Part shown: one piece after another, positions 2,659 through 57,063 of the stretch
How the letters are laid out: each line of letters opens with the position of its first letter
Numbering within the stretch: the first letter of the stretch is position 1
NCBI RefSeq assembly: GCF_005405905.1
Contig: NZ_BJHU01000035.1
Location: 372,001-436,000, forward strand
Reading direction: 5' to 3'
From: Acidovorax sp. NB1
Lineage (GTDB): Bacteria > Pseudomonadota > Gammaproteobacteria > Burkholderiales > Burkholderiaceae_C
DNA length: 64,000 nt
Made by a program: the position numbers and the translations under genes
The notes under the pieces: model-generated
Seen by the model: only the letters and a program-made list of their open reading frames with translations
What the model was told of the DNA's origin: nothing
Database searches by the model: none

Positions 2659-3267
2659 TCAGGAGCGCTTGCTGATCACCTGGTCCACCAGGCCGTATTC
2701 CTTGGCCTCGTCCGCTGACAGGAAGTAGTCGCGTTCGGTGTCGCGCTGGATCTTCTCCAGCGATTGGCCCGTGCGCTCAGCCAGGATGTTGTTGAGCTGC
2801 TCGCGGGTCTTCAGGATTTCGCGCGCGTGGATCTCGATCTCGGTAGCCTGGCCTTGCATGCCGCCCAAGGGCTGGTGGATCATGACCTTGGAGTTGGGCA
2901 GCGCAAAACGCTTGCCCTTGGCGCCAGCCGCCAGCAGGAAGGCGCCCATGCTGGCCGCCATGCCCGTGCACAGCGTCGAGACATCGGGCTTGATGAAGTT
3001 CATGGTGTCAAAAATTGCCATGCCCGCACTCACCGAGCCACCGGGAGAGTTGATGTAGAACGAAATGTCCTTGTCGGGGTTTTCGCTCTCCAGAAACAGC
3101 AGCTGCGCCACCACCAGATTGGCGGTCTGGTCGTTGACCGGCCCGACCAGGAAAATCACGCGCTCCTTGAGCAGGCGCGAGTAGATGTCATAGGACCGTT
3201 CGCCACGGCCCGACTGCTCGATGACCATGGGGACCATGCCCAGGCCTTGTGTTTCCAATGCACTCAT
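2659..3267 (-). CDS. clpP: ATP-dependent Clp protease proteolytic subunit ClpP
   Basis: ClpP is the serine peptidase that forms the double-ring proteolytic chamber used by ClpX and ClpA. The start is taken at 3267 ([13 protein letters not shown]), which has a CTGGAGAAAAC ribosome site just upstream and gives the normal length of 202 residues; the open frame extends 35 codons further upstream but through a terminator hairpin. The catalytic triad is visible: S106 in GMAASMGA, H131 in MIHQPLGG and D180 in RDTERDYF, with the same spacing as in E. coli ClpP. It sits between tig and clpX, with hairpins on both sides. Confidence 0.98.
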
Positions 3268-3308
3268 GTTTTCTCCAGTCAAGCAGGTACTGTACCCAGA
3301 AATGAATT

Positions 3309-3336
3309 GGGGCTTGTGCACAAAAGCACAAGCCCC
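3309..3336 (-). terminator. Perfect 11-bp hairpin between tig and clpP
   Basis: GGGGCTTGTGC (3309-3319) and GCACAAGCCCC (3326-3336) are exact reverse complements with a 6-base loop. The hairpin is 64 bases past the tig stop and 42 bases before the clpP start. The tract after it on the minus strand is only weakly T-rich (AATTCATTTC), so it may act as an attenuator or an mRNA processing or stability signal rather than a full terminator. Confidence 0.6.
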
Positions 3337-3399
3337 CTGGTGTGACACTTCGATCACCAGACCAGCAGCCACGCCACCAGCCGGTGAGGCCAGGGCCTA

Positions 3400-4716
3400 T
3401 CAGCCCTGCTGCTGCGCCATCAGGTCGTCGAACGAGACAGCCTTCTCGACCACCTTGGCCTTGCTCAGCACGAATTCAGTCACGTTGTTTTCAATCACAA
3501 CGGCTTCGACTTCGGCCAGACGCTGACGGTCGCCGAAGTACCAGCGCACCACGTCTTCAGGCTTCTCGTAGCTGGCGGCCAGCTCGTCGATGTGGGCCTT
3601 GAGCTGCTCGGGCTTAGCCTGCAGTTCGTTGGCACGCACCAGTTCGGCCAGCACCAGGCCCAGACGCACGCGGCGCTCGGCCTGGGGACGGAACACGTCT
3701 TCAGGGATTTCAGCCTTGTCGGCGTCCTTGATGCCGCGTTGCTTCAGCTCGGCACGGGCGCCTTCCAGCAGGCGGGCAATTTCAGCCTGGATGCTGGCGT
3801 TGGGCAGGTCCAGCTCGGCCTTGGCCACCAGGGCGTCCATCACGGCTTGCTTGTTGCGGGCCAGCAGACGGAACTTGACTTCACGCTCCAGGTTCTTCTT
3901 GATGTCGGCGCGCAGGCCATCCACAGAACCGTCGGCGATGCCCAGCGACTTGGCCAGGGCGTCGTTCACTTCGGGAAGGTGGGCGGCTTCGATCTTCTTC
4001 ACGGTCACGAGGAAGTCGGCGGTCTTGCCAGCCACGTCCTTGCCATGGTATTCGGCAGGGAACGCCAGAGGGAAGGTCTTACTTTCGCCCGACTTCATGC
4101 CGCGCACTGCGTCTTCGAATTCCTTGAGCATCTGGCCTTCGCCGACCAGGAACTGGAAGTCTTCGGCCTTGCCGCCGTCAAAGGGTTCACCGTCGATCTT
4201 GCCTTCGAAGTCCACGGTCACGCGGTCGCTGTCTTGCGCAGCGGCGTCGATGGCACGCTGGGCAAAGCTGCGGCGCTGCTTGCGCAGGATGTCGATGGTC
4301 TTGTCGATGGCGGAGTCGGTCACTTCGGACGACAGCTTCTCAACTTCGGCGTCCGACAGGTCGGCGATCTTGACTTCAGGGAACACTTCGAAGATGGCGT
4401 CGAACGTGACCTGGCCTTCAGGAGCGCCTTCCTTTTCGGTGATGCGGGGCTGGCCGGCAACACGCAGGTTGGCTTCGTTGGCAGCCACGGCAAAGGCTTC
4501 ACCGACCTTGTCGTTGAGCACTTCGTACTGCACCGAGTAGCCATAACGCTGGGCCACCACGTTCATGGGGACCTTGCCTGGACGGAAGCCGTCCATCTTC
4601 ACGGTGCGAGCCAGGCGCTTGAGGCGCGTATCGACTTCGGACTGGATCAGGGTGACGGGCACGCTCAGCGTGATCTTGCGCTCGAGCTTCTCAAGGGTTT
4701 CAACAGTAACGGCCAT
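3400..4716 (-). CDS. tig: Trigger factor (ribosome-bound chaperone and prolyl isomerase)
   Basis: Trigger factor binds the ribosome exit tunnel and helps new chains fold. The 438-residue protein begins [20 protein letters not shown] and carries the ribosome-binding GFRPGKVP signature near residue 44, a central FKBP-like isomerase domain ([17 protein letters not shown], about residues 165-185) and the long helical C-terminal arms. Length and domain order match the family. The ATG has an AGAGGAAT ribosome site. It is the first gene of the tig-clpP-clpX-lon run and lies just beyond tRNA-Leu on the same strand, so transcription from the tRNA promoter could reach it. Confidence 0.98.
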
Positions 4717-48901: not shown

Positions 48902-50833
48902 ATGCCCCGACGCCGCGTCTCACTGGCCGACCTGCACCGCACCGCCGTGGGCCAAGGCCAAGCCCTGCTGGGCACCGTGCCCGCGCCAGCGCCCCGCGCG
49001 CTGGGCGGCTTTGACACCCATGGCATCAGCCAGCACACCCACCCCACGGTGGCCGACATCAGCGAGTGCCTGTTCTTCTCGCCCGGCGACGGGCGCATCT
49101 GGCTGCAAGACCAGCGCATGATCCTGCTGCACTCCGAAGCCCTGGGCTCGCTGCGGCGTGAGCTGATCGACAGCATTGGCCTGGACAAGGCACGCGGCCT
49201 GCTGACCCGCGCAGGGTATGTGAGCGGCGCCCGCGACGCCCGCCTGGTGCGCCAGCAATGGCCCGACGCCGAACCCACCGCCGCCGCCATGGCTGGCACC
49301 CGCCTTCACGCGCTGGAGGGTGTGGTGCAGGTCGAGGTGGTGCACGCCCGATACAACGCCGAGCTGGGCGACTACGACGGCGAATTCATCTGGCACAACT
49401 CCAGCGAAGACGACGAGCACATCGCCGCCTACGGCGTGGGCGGCTCGCCCGCCTGCTGGATGCAGGTGGGCTACGCCACCGGCTACGTCAGCACCCTGTT
49501 TGGCCGCATGATCGTCTTCCGCGAGGTGGAGTGCCGATCCTCCGGCGCGGCGCACTGCCGCGTGATTGGCAAATCCGCCGAGCGCTGGGACGACCCCGAG
49601 CAAGACCTGTTCTACCTGAACGCCCAAGACTTTGTGGGCACCCCGCCCGCCGCGCTGGCCGACAAGCTGCTGGGCAAAGCAGGCCGTACCACCTACCTGG
49701 GCGTACCACCGGGCAAGGCCCCCGCAAGCGCTGCCACTCACAACACTCAAGAGCCCGCCGCCCACACCACCATGGTGGGCGCGTCATCGGCCTTTAACGC
49801 CGCCTGCCACATGCTGCAGCGCGTGGCCCCCACCGCCGCCACCGTGCTGTTCACTGGCGAATCGGGCGTGGGCAAGGAGATGTTTGCCAGCATGCTCCAC
49901 CGCATCAGCCCGCGCAGCAGCCAGCCCTTTGTGGCCATCAACTGCGCAGCCATTCCCGAGACGCTGGTGGAGAGCGAACTCTTTGGCGTGGAGCGCGGCG
50001 CCTACACCGGCGCAGGCACATCGCGCCCCGGCCGGTTTGAGCGCGCCCACGGCGGCACTCTCTTCCTCGACGAAATCGGCACTCTGAGTTTGGTAGCCCA
50101 AGGCAAGCTGCTGCGCGCCCTGCAAGAAGGCGAGGTAGAGCGCGTGGGCGGCACCCGCACCGTGCGCGTGGACGTGCGCCTGGTGGCCGCCACCAACGTG
50201 GACCTGCGCCAGGCCGTGCGCGAAGGCACCTTCCGCGAGGATTTGTTCTACCGCTTGAACGTCTTCCCCATCCACCTGCCCCCGCTGCGCGAGCGGCGCG
50301 ACGACATCCCGCTGCTGATGAGCCACTTCCTGGCCCACTACCAGCGCAAGCACCAGAGGCAAGTGCCCGGATTTAGCCAGGCGGCCGTGAAGGCGATGTT
50401 TCACTACCCCTTCCCCGGCAACATCCGCGAGCTGCAGAACCTGATTGAGCGGGCGGTGATCTTGGCGACGGATGGCGAGCCGATAGAGCCGCACCATTTG
50501 TTTGCGGGCGGTGAGCAAAGCTGCGGTGGGGTGATGTCGCTGCACCTGCAGGGCAACAGCGGGGGGACGTTGCATGTGCAGGGGGTGGCAGGTGTTGGGG
50601 CTGCGGTGCAGGCTCCGCCAGCGGCTGTAGCAGCGAGTGTGCGGAGTAGTGCGGGGCTAACGCCAGCCGCTTCGCCAGTAGTGGCACCGCTGCACCAGGC
50701 GGAAGAGCAGATGCTGCGGCAGGCGCTGCAGAGTGCGGGGGGGAACGTGGCGCTGGCGGGGCGGTTGCTGGGGATCAGCCGGGCGACGATGGCTTATCGG
50801 GTGAGGAAGTTTGGGATTGAAGTGGAACGCTGA
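48902..50833 (+). CDS. Sigma-54-dependent activator of the XylR/DmpR family (AreR-like role)
   Basis: A 643-residue enhancer-binding protein. An N-terminal XylR-type sensor region is followed by a V4R domain (about 140-222, with C211, H218, C219 in [15 protein letters not shown]), the AAA+ core with Walker A GESGVGKE (319-326), the sigma-54 loop as GAYTGA (366-371, tyrosine for the usual phenylalanine) and Walker B TLFLDEIG (386-393), and a Fis-type HTH at the end ([20 protein letters not shown]). Such sensors bind aromatic effectors. It is divergent from the aldehyde dehydrogenase operon, with activating sites and a -24/-12 promoter between them. Confidence 0.93.
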
Positions 50834-50911
50834 GAAATGAAAGCGCGGCGAAGAAATCCCGTTACGAAGTGCCGCTGAAGACCCAGAGCCACATGGGTAA
50901 ACTCAAAATAC

Positions 50912-50942
50912 GCGAAACATATACAATTCGAATACGTTTCGC
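50912..50942. promoter_or_regulatory. Palindromic operator upstream of the parD-like gene
   Basis: GCGAAAC (50912-50918) and GTTTCGC (50936-50942) are perfect inverted arms around an AT-rich 17-base centre (ATATACAATTCGAATAC) that could hold a -10 element. It ends 16 bases before the ParD-like start. Type II antitoxins usually bind such sites to control their own operon. Confidence 0.6.
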
Positions 50943-50958
50943 ATAAAGGCAGTACCCC

Positions 50959-51237
50959 ATGGGCATAGTCAAAATTTCCGACCAGATGCACGAAAACCTG
51001 CGTCTGGCCAGCACGGCGCTGAGCCGTTCCATCAACGCCCAGGCCGAGCACTGGATGCGTGTCGGCATGCTGGCCGAGTTGTATCCCGACCTGGACCACC
51101 GCGAAATTTGCCAGATGCTGGTGCGGGCCGAGCTGGCGGGTGGGCTGGATGTGGCGCTGGCGGCGCGGGGTGAGCTGGACAGCAAGCCTGCGGCAGACGT
51201 CACCCCCACCGCCCGCAGCAGAAAGCAGCCGCACTGA
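50959..51237 (+). CDS. ParD-like antitoxin family protein
   Basis: A 92-residue protein. The first 60 residues (MGIVKISDQMHENLRLASTA, then LSRSINAQAEHWMRVGMLAE) match the ParD_like family, a ribbon-helix-helix group listed as antitoxins; the last 30 are a low-complexity tail. AAAGG lies 9 bases before the ATG. Its TGA overlaps the start of the aminopeptidase gene (TGATG), so the two are coupled. No ParE/RelE-type toxin gene is present. Confidence 0.85.
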   Translation: MGIVKISDQMHENLRLASTALSRSINAQAEHWMRVGMLAELYPDLDHREICQMLVRAELAGGLDVALAARGELDSKPAADVTPTARSRKQPH

Positions 51238-52037
51238 TGGCCCGCGCTGACCGTGGGGTGCCGGTCCGCTCGGCCGAAGAACTGGTGATGGCGCGGCGGG
51301 CCGCACAACTGGCGGCCGAAGTGCTGGCGATGATCGAGCCGCATGTGGTTCCGGGCGTGACCACCGACGCGCTGGACCGCCTGTGCCATGACCACATCGT
51401 GAACGTGCAGGGCGCGCGGCCTGCCAATGTGGGCTATCTGGGCTACCCCAAGACGGTGCTGACCTCGGTGAACCATGTGGTGTGCCACGGCATCCCCTCG
51501 CCCCAGCAGACGCTGAAGAAGGGCGACATCGTGAACATTGATGTGGCGGTGGAAAAAGACGGCTGGTATGGCGACACCAGCCGCATGTATTGCGTGGGCG
51601 CGCCCAGCGTGCTCGCCCAGCGACTGGTGCACACGACCTACGAGGCGCTGTGCGCAGGCATCCGCACCGTGAAACCCGGAGCCACGCTGGGTGATGTGGG
51701 CCACGCCATTGCCACCGTGGCGCAGCGTGAGAACTTCAGCGTGGTGCGCGAGTACTGCGGCCACGGCATTGGCACCGTGTACCACGACGAGCCCCAGGTG
51801 CTGCACTACGGGCGGCGCGGCCAGGGGCTGCGGCTGGAGGCAGGGATGGTCTTCACCATCGAACCCATGCTGAACGCAGGCCAGCGCGAAACCAAGGAGC
51901 TGGCCGATGGCTGGACGGTGGTGACCAAGGACCGCTCGCTCTCGGCCCAGTGGGAACACATGGTGGCGGTGACAGACAGCGGGTTTGAGGTGCTGACGGC
52001 GTGGCCCGGGGGCACGGGCAGCTACCCGGCGATTTAG
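51237..52037 (+). CDS. map: Type I methionine aminopeptidase coupled to a ParD-like gene
   Basis: A 266-residue methionine aminopeptidase. The metal ligands are all visible: two aspartates in NIDVAVEKDGWYGDTSRMYC, histidine in YCGHGIGTVYHDEP, and glutamates in VFTIEPML and SAQWEHMVAVT. Length is normal for type I enzymes. It removes the initiator methionine from nascent chains. Most such bacteria carry a housekeeping map next to rpsB elsewhere, so this is likely a second copy. Coupling to a ParD-like gene under a palindrome is its notable trait. Confidence 0.93.
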   Translation: MARADRGVPVRSAEELVMARRAAQLAAEVLAMIEPHVVPGVTTDALDRLCHDHIVNVQGARPANVGYLGYPKTVLTSVNHVVCHGIPSPQQTLKKGDIVNIDVAVEKDGWYGDTSRMYCVGAPSVLAQRLVHTTYEALCAGIRTVKPGATLGDVGHAIATVAQRENFSVVREYCGHGIGTVYHDEPQVLHYGRRGQGLRLEAGMVFTIEPMLNAGQRETKELADGWTVVTKDRSLSAQWEHMVAVTDSGFEVLTAWPGGTGSYPAI

Positions 52038-52070
52038 CAGCGATGGGGGCTGCGCGATGGGGTCGCCCCA

Positions 52071-53099
52071 TCAGCCGCGCCGAAGCTCCAGACGGGCCCA
52101 GGCGGCCATCACATCGGGCTGCTTCTTGAGCCAGTCGGCAGACATCATGTTGGCGCCCCAGTGGTGGACGCGCGCCACGCCCTCCCCCATGTTCCACAGG
52201 TGCCGCAACTGCAAGAACAGGGGCAAGGCGGCGAGGTCGGCATCAGTGACAAGGCCGCCCCCTGCACGGTAGCCAGCCAGGTACTGCTGCCAGCGCTTGA
52301 GCAAAGCTTCATCGGGCTCCATGGGGGCCTTGCGCGGCAGGTTCGACCACAGCCACACACACAAGTCATAGGCCAGGAACCCTGGCCCGGCGTCGTCAAA
52401 GTCAAAGAAGGCTGCACGCTGCCCCCCCCCGGCATCGGTGTACACATGGTTGTTGAATCCATGTGTGTCGCCGTGGCACATCACGCGGGTCAAGGTGCCC
52501 TCCACCTCCGCCAGCTCGCTCAGAAGGCGCTCAATCAATTGCCGGTAGGCATCCAGCACGGCAGGGTCCAGCTCGGGATGGGCGGCAAGGTAGCCTAGCG
52601 TGCGGCCTGCCAGGTGGTGGCCGTCCAGCACATAGCGGCTGGCGGGGCCTGTGTAGCTTCGCGCAGCGCTGTGAATCTGGGCCAGCGTGGCGCCGGTCAG
52701 GTGCAGTTCCTCGGGCGTATCGGGCACGGCACCGTCGCAGTGGCGAAATAGCACCAGCGCACGCGGCCCCTCAGGGAACGGCAGGGTGATGCTAGTTGCT
52801 CCGTTAGCAGCCAACATCGGCATGGTCACACCCACACCCTGTGCGTGCAGGTGTGCCAGCAGCGCGACCTCGAAATCAACATTGAACGCGCCGCGCGGCC
52901 GAATGGCACAAAGCCGCGCCACGTAGCGGCTGCCATCCGTGGCCCGCACGGCGTAGTTGTCGTTCAGGTTGCGGCGGATCAGGTAGCACTGCTGCACTGG
53001 CAGGCCATAGTGCCGCGCCACCCAGTCGCTCACGGCAGAGGCTGCGGCTGTGGTGTGGGAGGAAATCAGGTTGAGGTCATCAGAGGTGGGTGAAAACAT
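52071..53099 (-). CDS. APH/homoserine-kinase-like phosphotransferase
   Basis: A 342-residue protein of the aminoglycoside-phosphotransferase/SrkA kinase fold. The catalytic loop is VMCHGDTHGFNNHVY, and FFDFDDAGPGFLAYDLCVWLWS holds the metal-binding aspartate. YVARLCAIRPRGAFNVDFEVALL is the lysine/glutamate part of the ATP site. GGAGAATGCCGC precedes the ATG. The substrate (amino alcohol, sugar or protein) is unknown. It is convergent with the aminopeptidase gene. Confidence 0.85.
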   Translation of the reverse strand: MFSPTSDDLNLISSHTTAAASAVSDWVARHYGLPVQQCYLIRRNLNDNYAVRATDGSRYVARLCAIRPRGAFNVDFEVALLAHLHAQGVGVTMPMLAANGATSITLPFPEGPRALVLFRHCDGAVPDTPEELHLTGATLAQIHSAARSYTGPASRYVLDGHHLAGRTLGYLAAHPELDPAVLDAYRQLIERLLSELAEVEGTLTRVMCHGDTHGFNNHVYTDAGGGQRAAFFDFDDAGPGFLAYDLCVWLWSNLPRKAPMEPDEALLKRWQQYLAGYRAGGGLVTDADLAALPLFLQLRHLWNMGEGVARVHHWGANMMSADWLKKQPDVMAAWARLELRRG

Positions 53100-54187: not shown

Positions 54188-55750
54188 CTACAAAGCATCC
54201 AGCCGCGTGCGCAGGCTGGCAGCATGCTCGCGCAGTGCATCCAGCTGCGGGCCCTGCATCTTTTGCAACTGGCGGTACACCATGCCGAGGCGAAAGTTGT
54301 TGCCCAGCGTGCCTTCGTTGCGCGCAAAAAAGTCCCAGTACAGGGCGTTGTACGGGCAGGCCCGTTCACCCACTTTTTGCTTTTTGTCGTAGTGGCAGCC
54401 GCTGCAGTAGTCGCTCATGCGGTCGATGTAGGCGGCGCTGCTCACGTACGGTTTGGTGGCCAGCAAGCCGCCGTCGGCAAACTGGCTCATGCCCACGGTG
54501 TTGGGCACTTCCACCCATTCAAAGGCGTCGATGTACACGCCCAGATACCAGCGGTGCACGGCGGCTGGATGAAGCCCCGCCAGCAGCGCAAAGTTGCCTA
54601 TGACCATAAGGCGCTGGATGTGGTGGGCATACGCATGCTCCAGCGACTGGCCCACGGCGTGCTGCATGCAGCGCATGCGGGTCTGGCCCGTCCAGAACCA
54701 CTCCGGCAGCGGCGTGTGGTGGCCCAGGGCGTTGCACTCGTCGTAGCCGGGCATGTGGGCCCAGTAGATGCCGCGCACGTATTCGCGCCAACCCAATATC
54801 TGGCGGATGAAGCCCTCCACGGCAGGTAGCGGCGCAGCGCCTGCGTGGTAGGCGGCTTGGGCGCGCTGCACCACCTCGTGCGGGCGCAGCATTTTGGTGT
54901 TAAGTGCGAAGGACAGCAGCGAATGAAACAGCCGCGTGCTCTTTGTGCTCATGGCATCTTCATAAGCGCCAAAGTGCGGCAGCGTGGCGGTGACGAAGTG
55001 ATCCAGCCACGCCAGTGCCTCGGCCCGGTTCAGCGGCCATTGCAGCGCCTCCGCCTGCGGGTTGCCAAAGCTCCGCACGCCTGCGGCCTGGATGGTGGCC
55101 CACAGGGCGCTGTGGTCGTGTGTGGGGCGGGCGTCGGGCGGCAATGCGGGGGTGCCGGGCCAGGGTTTGCGGTTGTCGTGGTCGTAGTTCCACTGCCCGC
55201 CTTCGGGCTCGCCCGCTGCGTCGATGAGCACGCTGTGGCGCTGGCGCATGCGGCGGTAGAAGTGTTCCATGAGCCACTGCTTGCGGCCTTGGAACACCTC
55301 GGCCATTTCGGTGCGCGTGGTGTAGAAGTGCTCGCTGCTGACAGCCTGCACCGTAAAGGTTTGCTCTGCACCCCAGGCGCGCAGTTGCTCGTCCAGCCGC
55401 CACTCGTCGGGGTGCTGGTATTGCAGCGTCTGCGCACCGTAATGGGACATGAGGGCGGCCAGGTTGTCGGGCATCGACTGGCGGTTGCTGGCGTCGTCAA
55501 TCGCCACATAGCGCACGCGGTGCCCGGCCTCGCGCAGGTGGCGGGCCAGGTCGCGCATGGCGGCAAAGATGGCGAGGATCTTTTGCGCGTGGTGCAGCAC
55601 GTAGTCGGTCTCTTGCCGCACCTCCATCAGCACGTAGACCACGCCGTTGTCCTGCGTGGCAAACCACGAATGCTCGGGGTTGAGCTGGTCGCCCAGCAGC
55701 AGTCGCAGGGTGTGGGCACGCTGTGGGGTGGAAGGTTGCTGCGTGCTCAT
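54188..55750 (-). CDS. FeS-type bacterial cryptochrome/(6-4) photolyase (PhrB-like)
   Basis: A 520-residue protein of the deoxyribodipyrimidine-photolyase-related (FeS-BCP) family. The four [4Fe-4S] cysteines are C361, C449, C452 and C465 (RMRCMQH, YCSGCHYD, RACPYN); their spacing is identical to that of Agrobacterium PhrB (88, 3, 13). LRLLLGDQLNPEHSWF is the family's N-terminal motif. It uses light to repair (6-4) photoproducts with FAD and a lumazine-type antenna in known members. It overlaps the DASH-type gene upstream by ATGA. Confidence 0.93.
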   Translation of the reverse strand: MSTQQPSTPQRAHTLRLLLGDQLNPEHSWFATQDNGVVYVLMEVRQETDYVLHHAQKILAIFAAMRDLARHLREAGHRVRYVAIDDASNRQSMPDNLAALMSHYGAQTLQYQHPDEWRLDEQLRAWGAEQTFTVQAVSSEHFYTTRTEMAEVFQGRKQWLMEHFYRRMRQRHSVLIDAAGEPEGGQWNYDHDNRKPWPGTPALPPDARPTHDHSALWATIQAAGVRSFGNPQAEALQWPLNRAEALAWLDHFVTATLPHFGAYEDAMSTKSTRLFHSLLSFALNTKMLRPHEVVQRAQAAYHAGAAPLPAVEGFIRQILGWREYVRGIYWAHMPGYDECNALGHHTPLPEWFWTGQTRMRCMQHAVGQSLEHAYAHHIQRLMVIGNFALLAGLHPAAVHRWYLGVYIDAFEWVEVPNTVGMSQFADGGLLATKPYVSSAAYIDRMSDYCSGCHYDKKQKVGERACPYNALYWDFFARNEGTLGNNFRLGMVYRQLQKMQGPQLDALREHAASLRTRLDAL

Positions 55751-57063
55751 GCCGTGCCCCACATGCGGCGGTAGCTGCCGTCGGCGTCGTGGTCTTGCGC
55801 CTGCTTGATGGGGTTGAAGCGGCGGCCCCCGCGCGGGTCGGTGCCGCGCCCGGCAATGTAGAGCCAGTTGGCCTGGTTGCTGTACACGTCGTAGTCCACC
55901 AGTTGCGATTCAAACCACGCGGCGCCCGCGCGCCAGTCGCTGTGCAGGTCGTAGATGAGGTAACTGGCCACCACTTGGCGCAGGCGGTTGCTCAAGTAGC
56001 CGGTGGCAACCAGCTCGCGCATGGCGGCGTCCACCAAGGGCTCGCCCGTCTCGCCCCGGCACCAGCGATCAAAGCCGCGCGGGTTGTGTGGGGCGGGTGG
56101 TAGTTCTGACAGGCCGCGCGCCCGGTACAGCGCTGCGCAGTACTGCAGATGCAATAGCCGACAGTAGTCGCGCCACAGCAGTTCAAACCACAGCCAGTAG
56201 GTGCCATCGTTGGCACCGTGGTCGAGCTCAAAGGCTTTCAAGTCGGCATAGACCTGCCGGGGCGAGAGCGCCCCCGTCGCCAGCCAGGGCGAGAACTTGC
56301 TGGAGTAGTCCAGCCCCGTGAGTCCGTTGCGCGTGGCCTTGTAGCTGTGAGGCAGCTTGCGGGCCAGGTACTGCGCCAGGTGGGCCAGCGCGGCGGCTTC
56401 GCTGCCATCGCACGCTGGGGTGCCGTAGAGGAAGGACGAGCGTGCATCGCTGCCCTGCGGCGACGCGGGCTGCAGGATTGCTGCAGCGCCCTGCTCTGCG
56501 CCCACTGCTTGCAGCACGAGGGCTGGCACATCGGGCGGCGGCAGCAGCCGGGCGGGTGCAGGCAATGGTGCGGCGGGGGTGATGCCTGCACGCTCTACCT
56601 TCTGGCGAAAGCTGGTGAACACACCCGGCAGCTCAGAGGCAGGCCAGGGCATGTCAGTCGGGGGCAGCAGGCTGCTGTGCCACGCGGTACGCACCTGCAG
56701 GCCTGCGGCGCGGAGTGCAGCCACCTCGGCCTGCTCGTAGGGGGCGGCAATGTCTTCGCACACCACGGTGGTGGCCCCCACCGCCTGGGCCAGTTGCGGC
56801 AAGGCCGTGGCAGGCGGTGCCTGGCAGATCAGCAGCGGGTTGCCCAGTGCACGCATCTTCCCTTGCAGCCCGCGAATCGCCGCAGCGGTGAAGGCGCGGC
56901 GGTGTGGGCTGACACGGGCAAAGCCCCAGGGCGTGGATTCATCGGGCGTTGGCAGGCACACCACGGGCAGCAGGTGTGTGGCACCGCTAGTGAGGGCGGC
57001 GCGCAGCGCGGGTTGGTCGTGCAGGCGCAGGTCGCTGCGGAACCAGAACAGCACGGTGTTCAT
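55747..57063 (-). CDS. Cryptochrome-DASH-type photolyase
   Basis: A 438-residue photolyase/cryptochrome. [20 protein letters not shown] starts the antenna domain; the FAD domain has [33 protein letters not shown] and the DASH-type end [24 protein letters not shown] proteins repair cyclobutane dimers, mainly in single-stranded DNA. It overlaps the DUF2256 gene upstream and the FeS photolyase downstream by 4 bases each. Confidence 0.93.

Follow-up and report, generated by a model that had tools for sequence, protein, structure and literature searches.

The 64,000-nucleotide stretch of Acidovorax sp. NB1 DNA analysed here (the window) encodes a ParD-like protein and, directly after it in an overlapping reading frame, a methionine aminopeptidase (MetAP, gene map). 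This enzyme cleaves the initial amino acid from newly made proteins, and is generally regarded as a constant housekeeping activity and an antibiotic target. From comparisons of sequences we read the pair, with a probability of about 0.6, as a self-regulated two-gene operon in which the ParD-like protein is a repressor that controls a second, conditional MetAP. The ParD-like protein would bind an operator of three boxes that lies shortly before its own start codon, and the bound protein would repress both itself and the translationally coupled second map. A cue that lifts this repression would then allow extra MetAP to be made alongside the housekeeping MetAP encoded elsewhere.

The first-pass annotation of this DNA had described a ParD-like gene that overlaps a full-length map below a dyad, and profile scores bear out both genes (Table 1). 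The ParD-like stop codon and the map start codon share one base, an arrangement that suggests translational coupling. The pair is flanked by genes for a XylR/V4R-type sigma-54 activator and an APH-family phosphotransferase. The annotation's statement that no toxin of a known kind is present holds for the pair and its two flanking genes, which is the scope of our toxin scan; the Map partner belongs to TIGR00500/PF00557, which is not a recognised toxin family. A defence-system label for the pair was dropped, since neither the ParD-like protein nor Map had a match in PADLOC. A scan of positions 50700-52150 found no sigma-70 promoter, which is a point against the operon reading.

Table 1 Features of the ParD-map locus, in positions of the window.
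Feature	Position	Strand	Score or basis
ParD_like (PF11903) gene, 92 aa	50959..51237	+	104.9 bits (cut-off 23)
map gene (TIGR00500), 266 aa	51237..52037	+	308.1 bits (cut-off 171.35)
TGATG, overlap of ParD stop and map start	51235..51239	+	read from sequence; putative translational coupling
Operator-like region (imperfect dyad and 27-bp conserved element)	50909..50945	+	dyad scan; motif model
27-bp conserved element	50919-50945	+	motif model
TATA-like boxes of the element, 11-bp pitch	50919-50924, 50930-50935, 50941-50945	+	motif model

An adjacency survey revealed that the ParD-map pairing is not confined to one strain. For a search across a sample of the phylum we aligned 15 proteins, of which 14 are map-linked and one stands beside a decayed map. 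The search found this ParD subfamily in 48 of 398 genomes, at 48 places scoring at least 88 bits, followed by a gap down to 50.5 bits. For all 48 ParD genes a map match starts within 127 bases on the same strand, which speaks against chance adjacency, and all 48 genomes keep a further map elsewhere. Among 299 genomes of the same family, 106 have a PF11903 match. Neighbours were examined at 70 PF11903 places of this family (30 loci and 40 stretches). The 46 places scoring at least 85.6 bits (30 + 16 loci) all have map directly downstream, and the 24 lower-scoring places include five with a map whose product is about 50% identical to the window Map and 19 where none was found. A contig scan with one genome per species returned at least 598 stretches, at least 575 of them relatives, of which the best 80 were used. 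In the pooled loci with this ParD subfamily, map is adjacent at 167 of 170, a pool that includes repeats of the same genomes (152 after removal of identical pairs). At the other three, the contig ends (L171), map has decayed (L006) or map is frameshifted (L107). The gap between the genes is -4 in 86 and -1 in 52 loci, together 138 of the 167 partly redundant loci, counted to the map start nearest the ParD stop, which favours small gaps. Among 76 loci examined, no family of neighbouring genes turns up at more than 7; a third partner gene was therefore dropped, and the flanking genes indicate no cue.

The module also occurs on plasmids. The ParD-like protein matches 166 plasmid records, 74 of them below 60% identity, and four of five that we examined have an annotated map. 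In one of the loci, on a plasmid of Pantoea sp. At-9b (L106, 3001-4635), msrA, encoding a methionine sulfoxide reductase, follows the pair on the same strand. No phage record matched the ParD-like protein, and a phage origin of the pair was dropped, though ParD matches phrog_16013 (36.2 bits) and Map matches phrog_24316 (56.4 bits), both PHROG families of unknown function, indicating that related proteins occur in viruses. When the DNA of a Kosakonia pair was compared with 5426 E. coli genomes, no place covering 80% was found; among the matches listed, coverage was about 30%, over the housekeeping map, and E. coli may still hold a divergent copy. The E. coli control genome has no PF11903 match.

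Inspection of the linked Map bore out the presence of all five metal ligands stated in the first-pass annotation and placed them at D102, D113, H176, E209 and E240, positions which we take to be ligands from the numbering of E. coli MetAP. Across 148 full-length linked Maps, four of the positions are kept in 148 and H176 in 147. The window map had been considered as possibly the only one in its genome, which did not apply: the genome holds two type I maps over the cut-off, the other at G000:C30:311152-311910. The two Maps belong to the same enzyme family, share the ligands and are 57% identical; unlike the housekeeping gene, the window map is an additional copy of a separate Map lineage, with its own repressor-like gene and operator-like element. 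Two type I maps are present in 48 of 49 genomes with an intact ParD-map pair, and three in the remaining one (G786). By comparison, 35 of 40 genomes without this ParD, hand-picked from those with no match, have one type I map and five have two, and the 13 ParD-free genomes of the genus comprise 11 with one map and two with a second. Judged by these copy counts, the pair seems to be an accessory module through which a genome gains a second MetAP, and the best reading of the linked enzyme is a catalytically ordinary extra MetAP.

We calculated trees of the linked Maps, which form two groups, A (containing the window Map) and B. In a first quick tree the housekeeping Maps fall between the groups. 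A constraint that places all linked Maps and their ParD-free offshoots in one clade gave a better likelihood and was not rejected (p-AU 0.709). That test was designed with the first tree already known, and the long rows L249 and L251 were excluded from it. For 146 of 146 pairs the closest ParD comes from the Map clade of the pair itself. The simplest history would be one old pairing that was inherited as a unit and lost its ParD in some lineages; alternatively, the genes may have paired twice. Since PF11903 relatives pair with toxins, the operon may descend from an antitoxin-type repressor put before a map copy.

The upstream region contains the perfect dyad GCGAAAC/GTTTCGC of the first-pass annotation, without mismatch at 50912-50918 and 50936-50942, but the dyad itself is not what is conserved. 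Its imperfect arms are 14 nt each and 86% complementary (50909-50922 and 50932-50945). A dyad scan allowing up to 3 mismatches found 2 matches where chance predicts 3.46 per window, so a short dyad in one sequence proves little, and only 11 of 111 related sites retain the left arm with at most 1 mismatch. Conservation is found instead in a 27-bp element that includes the right arm and borders on the left one. The simple pattern TATA-N7-TATA lies upstream of 99 of 146 non-redundant ParD genes, against 1.10 expected from dinucleotide shuffles. A motif model with the consensus ATATACGATTCATATACGTTTCGTATA (27 bp, three boxes at 11-bp pitch, 31 bits) finds the element upstream of 145 of the 146 genes on which it was built, mostly 10-14 bases before the ParD start codon (101/145). 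The sole region without it, at L079, precedes a ParD of doubtful start. In this in-sample test the window site scores 33.8 bits, and the motif occurs in none of 169 control stretches, which start 100 nt downstream of the ParD stop, and in none of 730 mononucleotide shuffles.

Since this motif test was in-sample, we retrained the model with clade B and the window left out. The held-out model recovered 20 of 20 clade B regions, at 24.3 to 42.5 bits, and scored the window at 33.4 bits. It scored no more than 10 bits before any of 41 other PF11903 genes or any of 38 maps without ParD (one place counted twice). A stricter model, from which the relatives of the genus were also left out, again recovered 20 of 20 clade B regions (20.9 to 42.0 bits) and the window (32.0 bits); it was started from one training sequence, while the starting consensus of the earlier models had been drawn from all sequences. 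With a 26-base pattern and up to 3 mismatches, the window site is the only match in the 5.49-Mb genome. Control therefore looks local, and a wider regulon was dropped. A 15-base two-box pattern with at most 1 mismatch has one other palindromic place, and here the control matches outnumber the pattern matches. A conserved single-site element is what a dedicated local autorepressor would leave, and the ParD-like protein may bind it at a position that overlaps the promoter of the pair.

We further characterized the ParD-like protein itself, which is 95% identical to one from Acidovorax kalamii. Its conservation extends to about residue 64 and declines beyond; residues 42-64 are partly conserved and could be a partner-binding part, and the tail is unconserved and of low confidence in the AlphaFold model. 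The model of the monomer (mean pLDDT 78.0) contains helices at residues 8-41, 47-60 and 65-69 and no strand; that no ribbon-helix-helix is recognisable in it is a further point against the operon reading. Foldseek with this model gave no significant match (best E 4.1), and no solved structure related by sequence to the protein was found. Top rows of the fold search, such as chains of the TRAAK channel, were helix matches and were dropped, and a MenAT1 chain (8an5_C, Z 5.9) lies below the level that is trustworthy for helices. The ribbon-helix-helix fold is thus a prediction, from the Pfam family and from the reading of a relative in the available part of one report (PMC6362051).

The first-pass annotation had left two options for the pair. 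The ParD-like protein as repressor of a second, conditional MetAP gains from the gene order, the copy number and the operator-like element, and the aminopeptidase as a toxin is disfavoured by ParD-free maps and the unconserved ParD tail. We regard it as unlikely that the pair is a true toxin-antitoxin module, with the ParD-like protein as antitoxin and a free aminopeptidase that is toxic, for example by over-trimming nascent proteins. Much of the layout would suit such a module: the antitoxin-first order, the gene overlap, the operator-like element of its own, the plasmid copies and a patchy presence, with ParD in 34 of 47 genomes of the genus (map adjacency was checked for a minority of the 34, and three of the 13 genomes without ParD are under 83% complete). 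Relatives in PF11903 do pair with toxins, both ParE-like (PF15781) and zeta. The same genome has a ParD_like match (L002, G000:C47:27784-30960, match at 1501-1677) with a zeta-like ORF directly after it (1828-2475; PF06414, 43.1 bits), and the parts of the TASmania report available to us also record ParD_like with zeta (PMC6504116).

Broken maps bear on this question as well. At L006 (1440-1860) an intact ParD and operator-like element are followed by an N-terminal map remnant, in a genome with one map only. At L126 (Paracidovorax oryzae, 3001-3618; counted within the 167 adjacent loci) ParD is intact and the N-terminal half of map is lost, and at L107 ParD is intact beside a map with frameshifts that are possibly sequencing errors. 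The operator-like element is still present at all three. An intact antitoxin beside a broken partner is the order of decay expected of a toxin-antitoxin module, and plain regulation of map does not need it, which makes these loci a point against the operon reading. Conversely, second maps persist without ParD or an operator-like element in four genomes in which this ParD was not found. Two of them (G212 and G714) belong to the linked lineage by tree. Two more, in the same genus (G886, L267; G899, L266), encode Maps 76% identical to the window Map and 81-84% identical to the nearest linked Map, a placement made by identity and not by a tree. The second maps of the control genomes G189, G218 and G758 are not clearly inside the linked lineage in the tree, and the further ParD-free map of G786 counts for less, since the pair is present elsewhere in that genome. 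The existence of ParD-free second maps also indicates that the regulator is dispensable in some lineages, which is a point against the operon reading. Also against a toxin are the ordinary catalytic residues of Map and the tolerance of E. coli to extra MetAP. With the ligands kept, the ParD tail unconserved and Maps of the lineage persisting without ParD, we did not file the pair as a toxin-antitoxin system. Its control region nevertheless probably functions as in such systems.

The PF11903-PF15781 pair has the antitoxin family, the small gene in first position and the partner directly downstream in common with the ParD-map pair, but the downstream gene encodes a ParE-like toxin, the three-box operator was not found before its ParD, and several of its ParDs share a C-terminal tail (e.g. 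...FVPRSRR, by eye). ParE-like labels were given by eye, with two of the proteins confirmed by Pfam. At two further loci (L098 and L103) a PF11903 gene precedes a protein of about 258 aa that looks nucleotidyltransferase-like by eye and has no Pfam or NCBIfam match; this is possibly an unnamed toxin type. According to the accessible part of its description, the non-canonical PezAT-like pair Rv0367c-Rv0366c of M. tuberculosis shares with the ParD-map pair a PF11903 match, at the N-terminus, an adjacent partner and a predicted ribbon-helix-helix (PMC6362051). It differs in a zeta/PezT-like partner with shown growth inhibition and in an antitoxin C-terminal region predicted to be ordered. In that same text Rv0367c rescues this inhibition and is thereby a shown antitoxin of a zeta-like toxin, which favours the toxin reading of the ParD-map pair, and the authors set the ParD assignment aside (PMC6362051). 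The Pfam "antitoxin" label and the plasmid annotation "ParD-like family protein" are probably misleading for the map-linked subfamily. The proposed self-regulated operon also resembles the autorepressing ribbon-helix-helix operons of MetJ, Arc, CopG and the omega type in its small protein, repeated boxes and operator near its own start, a fold kinship that the structure search did not show. We know of none among these repressors that controls a methionine aminopeptidase.

The N-terminus of the ParD-like protein is notable. Of 152 map-linked ParDs, 151 have Gly as their second residue and the exception (L079) has an apparently mis-set start; a start codon directly precedes this position in every case (145 ATG, 7 GTG). 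MetAP classically accepts Met-Gly as a substrate, and in ribbon-helix-helix proteins the DNA-reading strand is formed by the first residues. The ParD-like protein might then sense MetAP activity, with processing of its own Met-Gly, at the presumed DNA-reading strand, setting repression. A repressor trimmed by MetAP would keep the operon shut, and if the housekeeping MetAP were short of metal or inhibited, the untrimmed repressor would let the spare enzyme be expressed. We consider this quite improbable, and the near-invariant Met-Gly start suggestive only. The varying length of the N-termini of other PF11903 proteins favours the sensor reading, but these proteins also commonly begin Met-Ser, Met-Gly or Met-Ala. 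Gly2 may serve the fold or DNA contact alone, an in-frame ATG lies at most 15 codons upstream in 21 of the 152, so that some true starts may differ, and the strand expected from the family is absent from the AlphaFold model. If true, this would be a feedback loop sensing N-terminal Met removal through the repressor's own N-terminus.

Least favoured, and doubtful in our view, is that Map binds the ParD-like protein as a co-repressor or is held inactive by it, with conditional cooperativity as in type II systems and no toxin: the fixed neighbourhood, the overlapping genes and the strict co-segregation of the pair would fit such contact, but sheer linkage also yields co-segregation, the ParD tail offers no conserved binding element, and the operator-like element persists beside the three broken maps.

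A description of a ParD-like/methionine aminopeptidase pair was not found in the open-access literature, the sole scope of our search, in which "second MetAP" wording is poorly searchable. Two candidate accounts were set aside. In the part of PMC3948609 available to us, map is ORF4 and relBE are ORFs 28-29 of one clone, which is unrelated, and the available text of PMC11481867 names methionine aminopeptidase once, in a gene table. A link to self-resistance against MetAP inhibitors (bengamide) was dropped, as the accessible portion of a review (PMC9228497) gave nothing on a resistant MetAP. The self-regulated operon would have wider meaning. Given a second copy with an operator-like element in 48 of 398 genomes, many species may be able to raise or replace MetAP on cue. 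The pair is present in roughly an eighth of the phylum genomes sampled, which suggests that regulation of protein trimming on demand is possible. The operon would thus be relevant to MetAP inhibitors, to N-terminal processing during stress, and to how antitoxin-type repressors come to control ordinary enzymes.

Elsewhere in the window, two adjoining photolyase-related genes lie on the reverse strand at 54188-57063, one matching PF04244 (DPRP) and the other encoding a DNA photolyase with PF00875 and PF03441.
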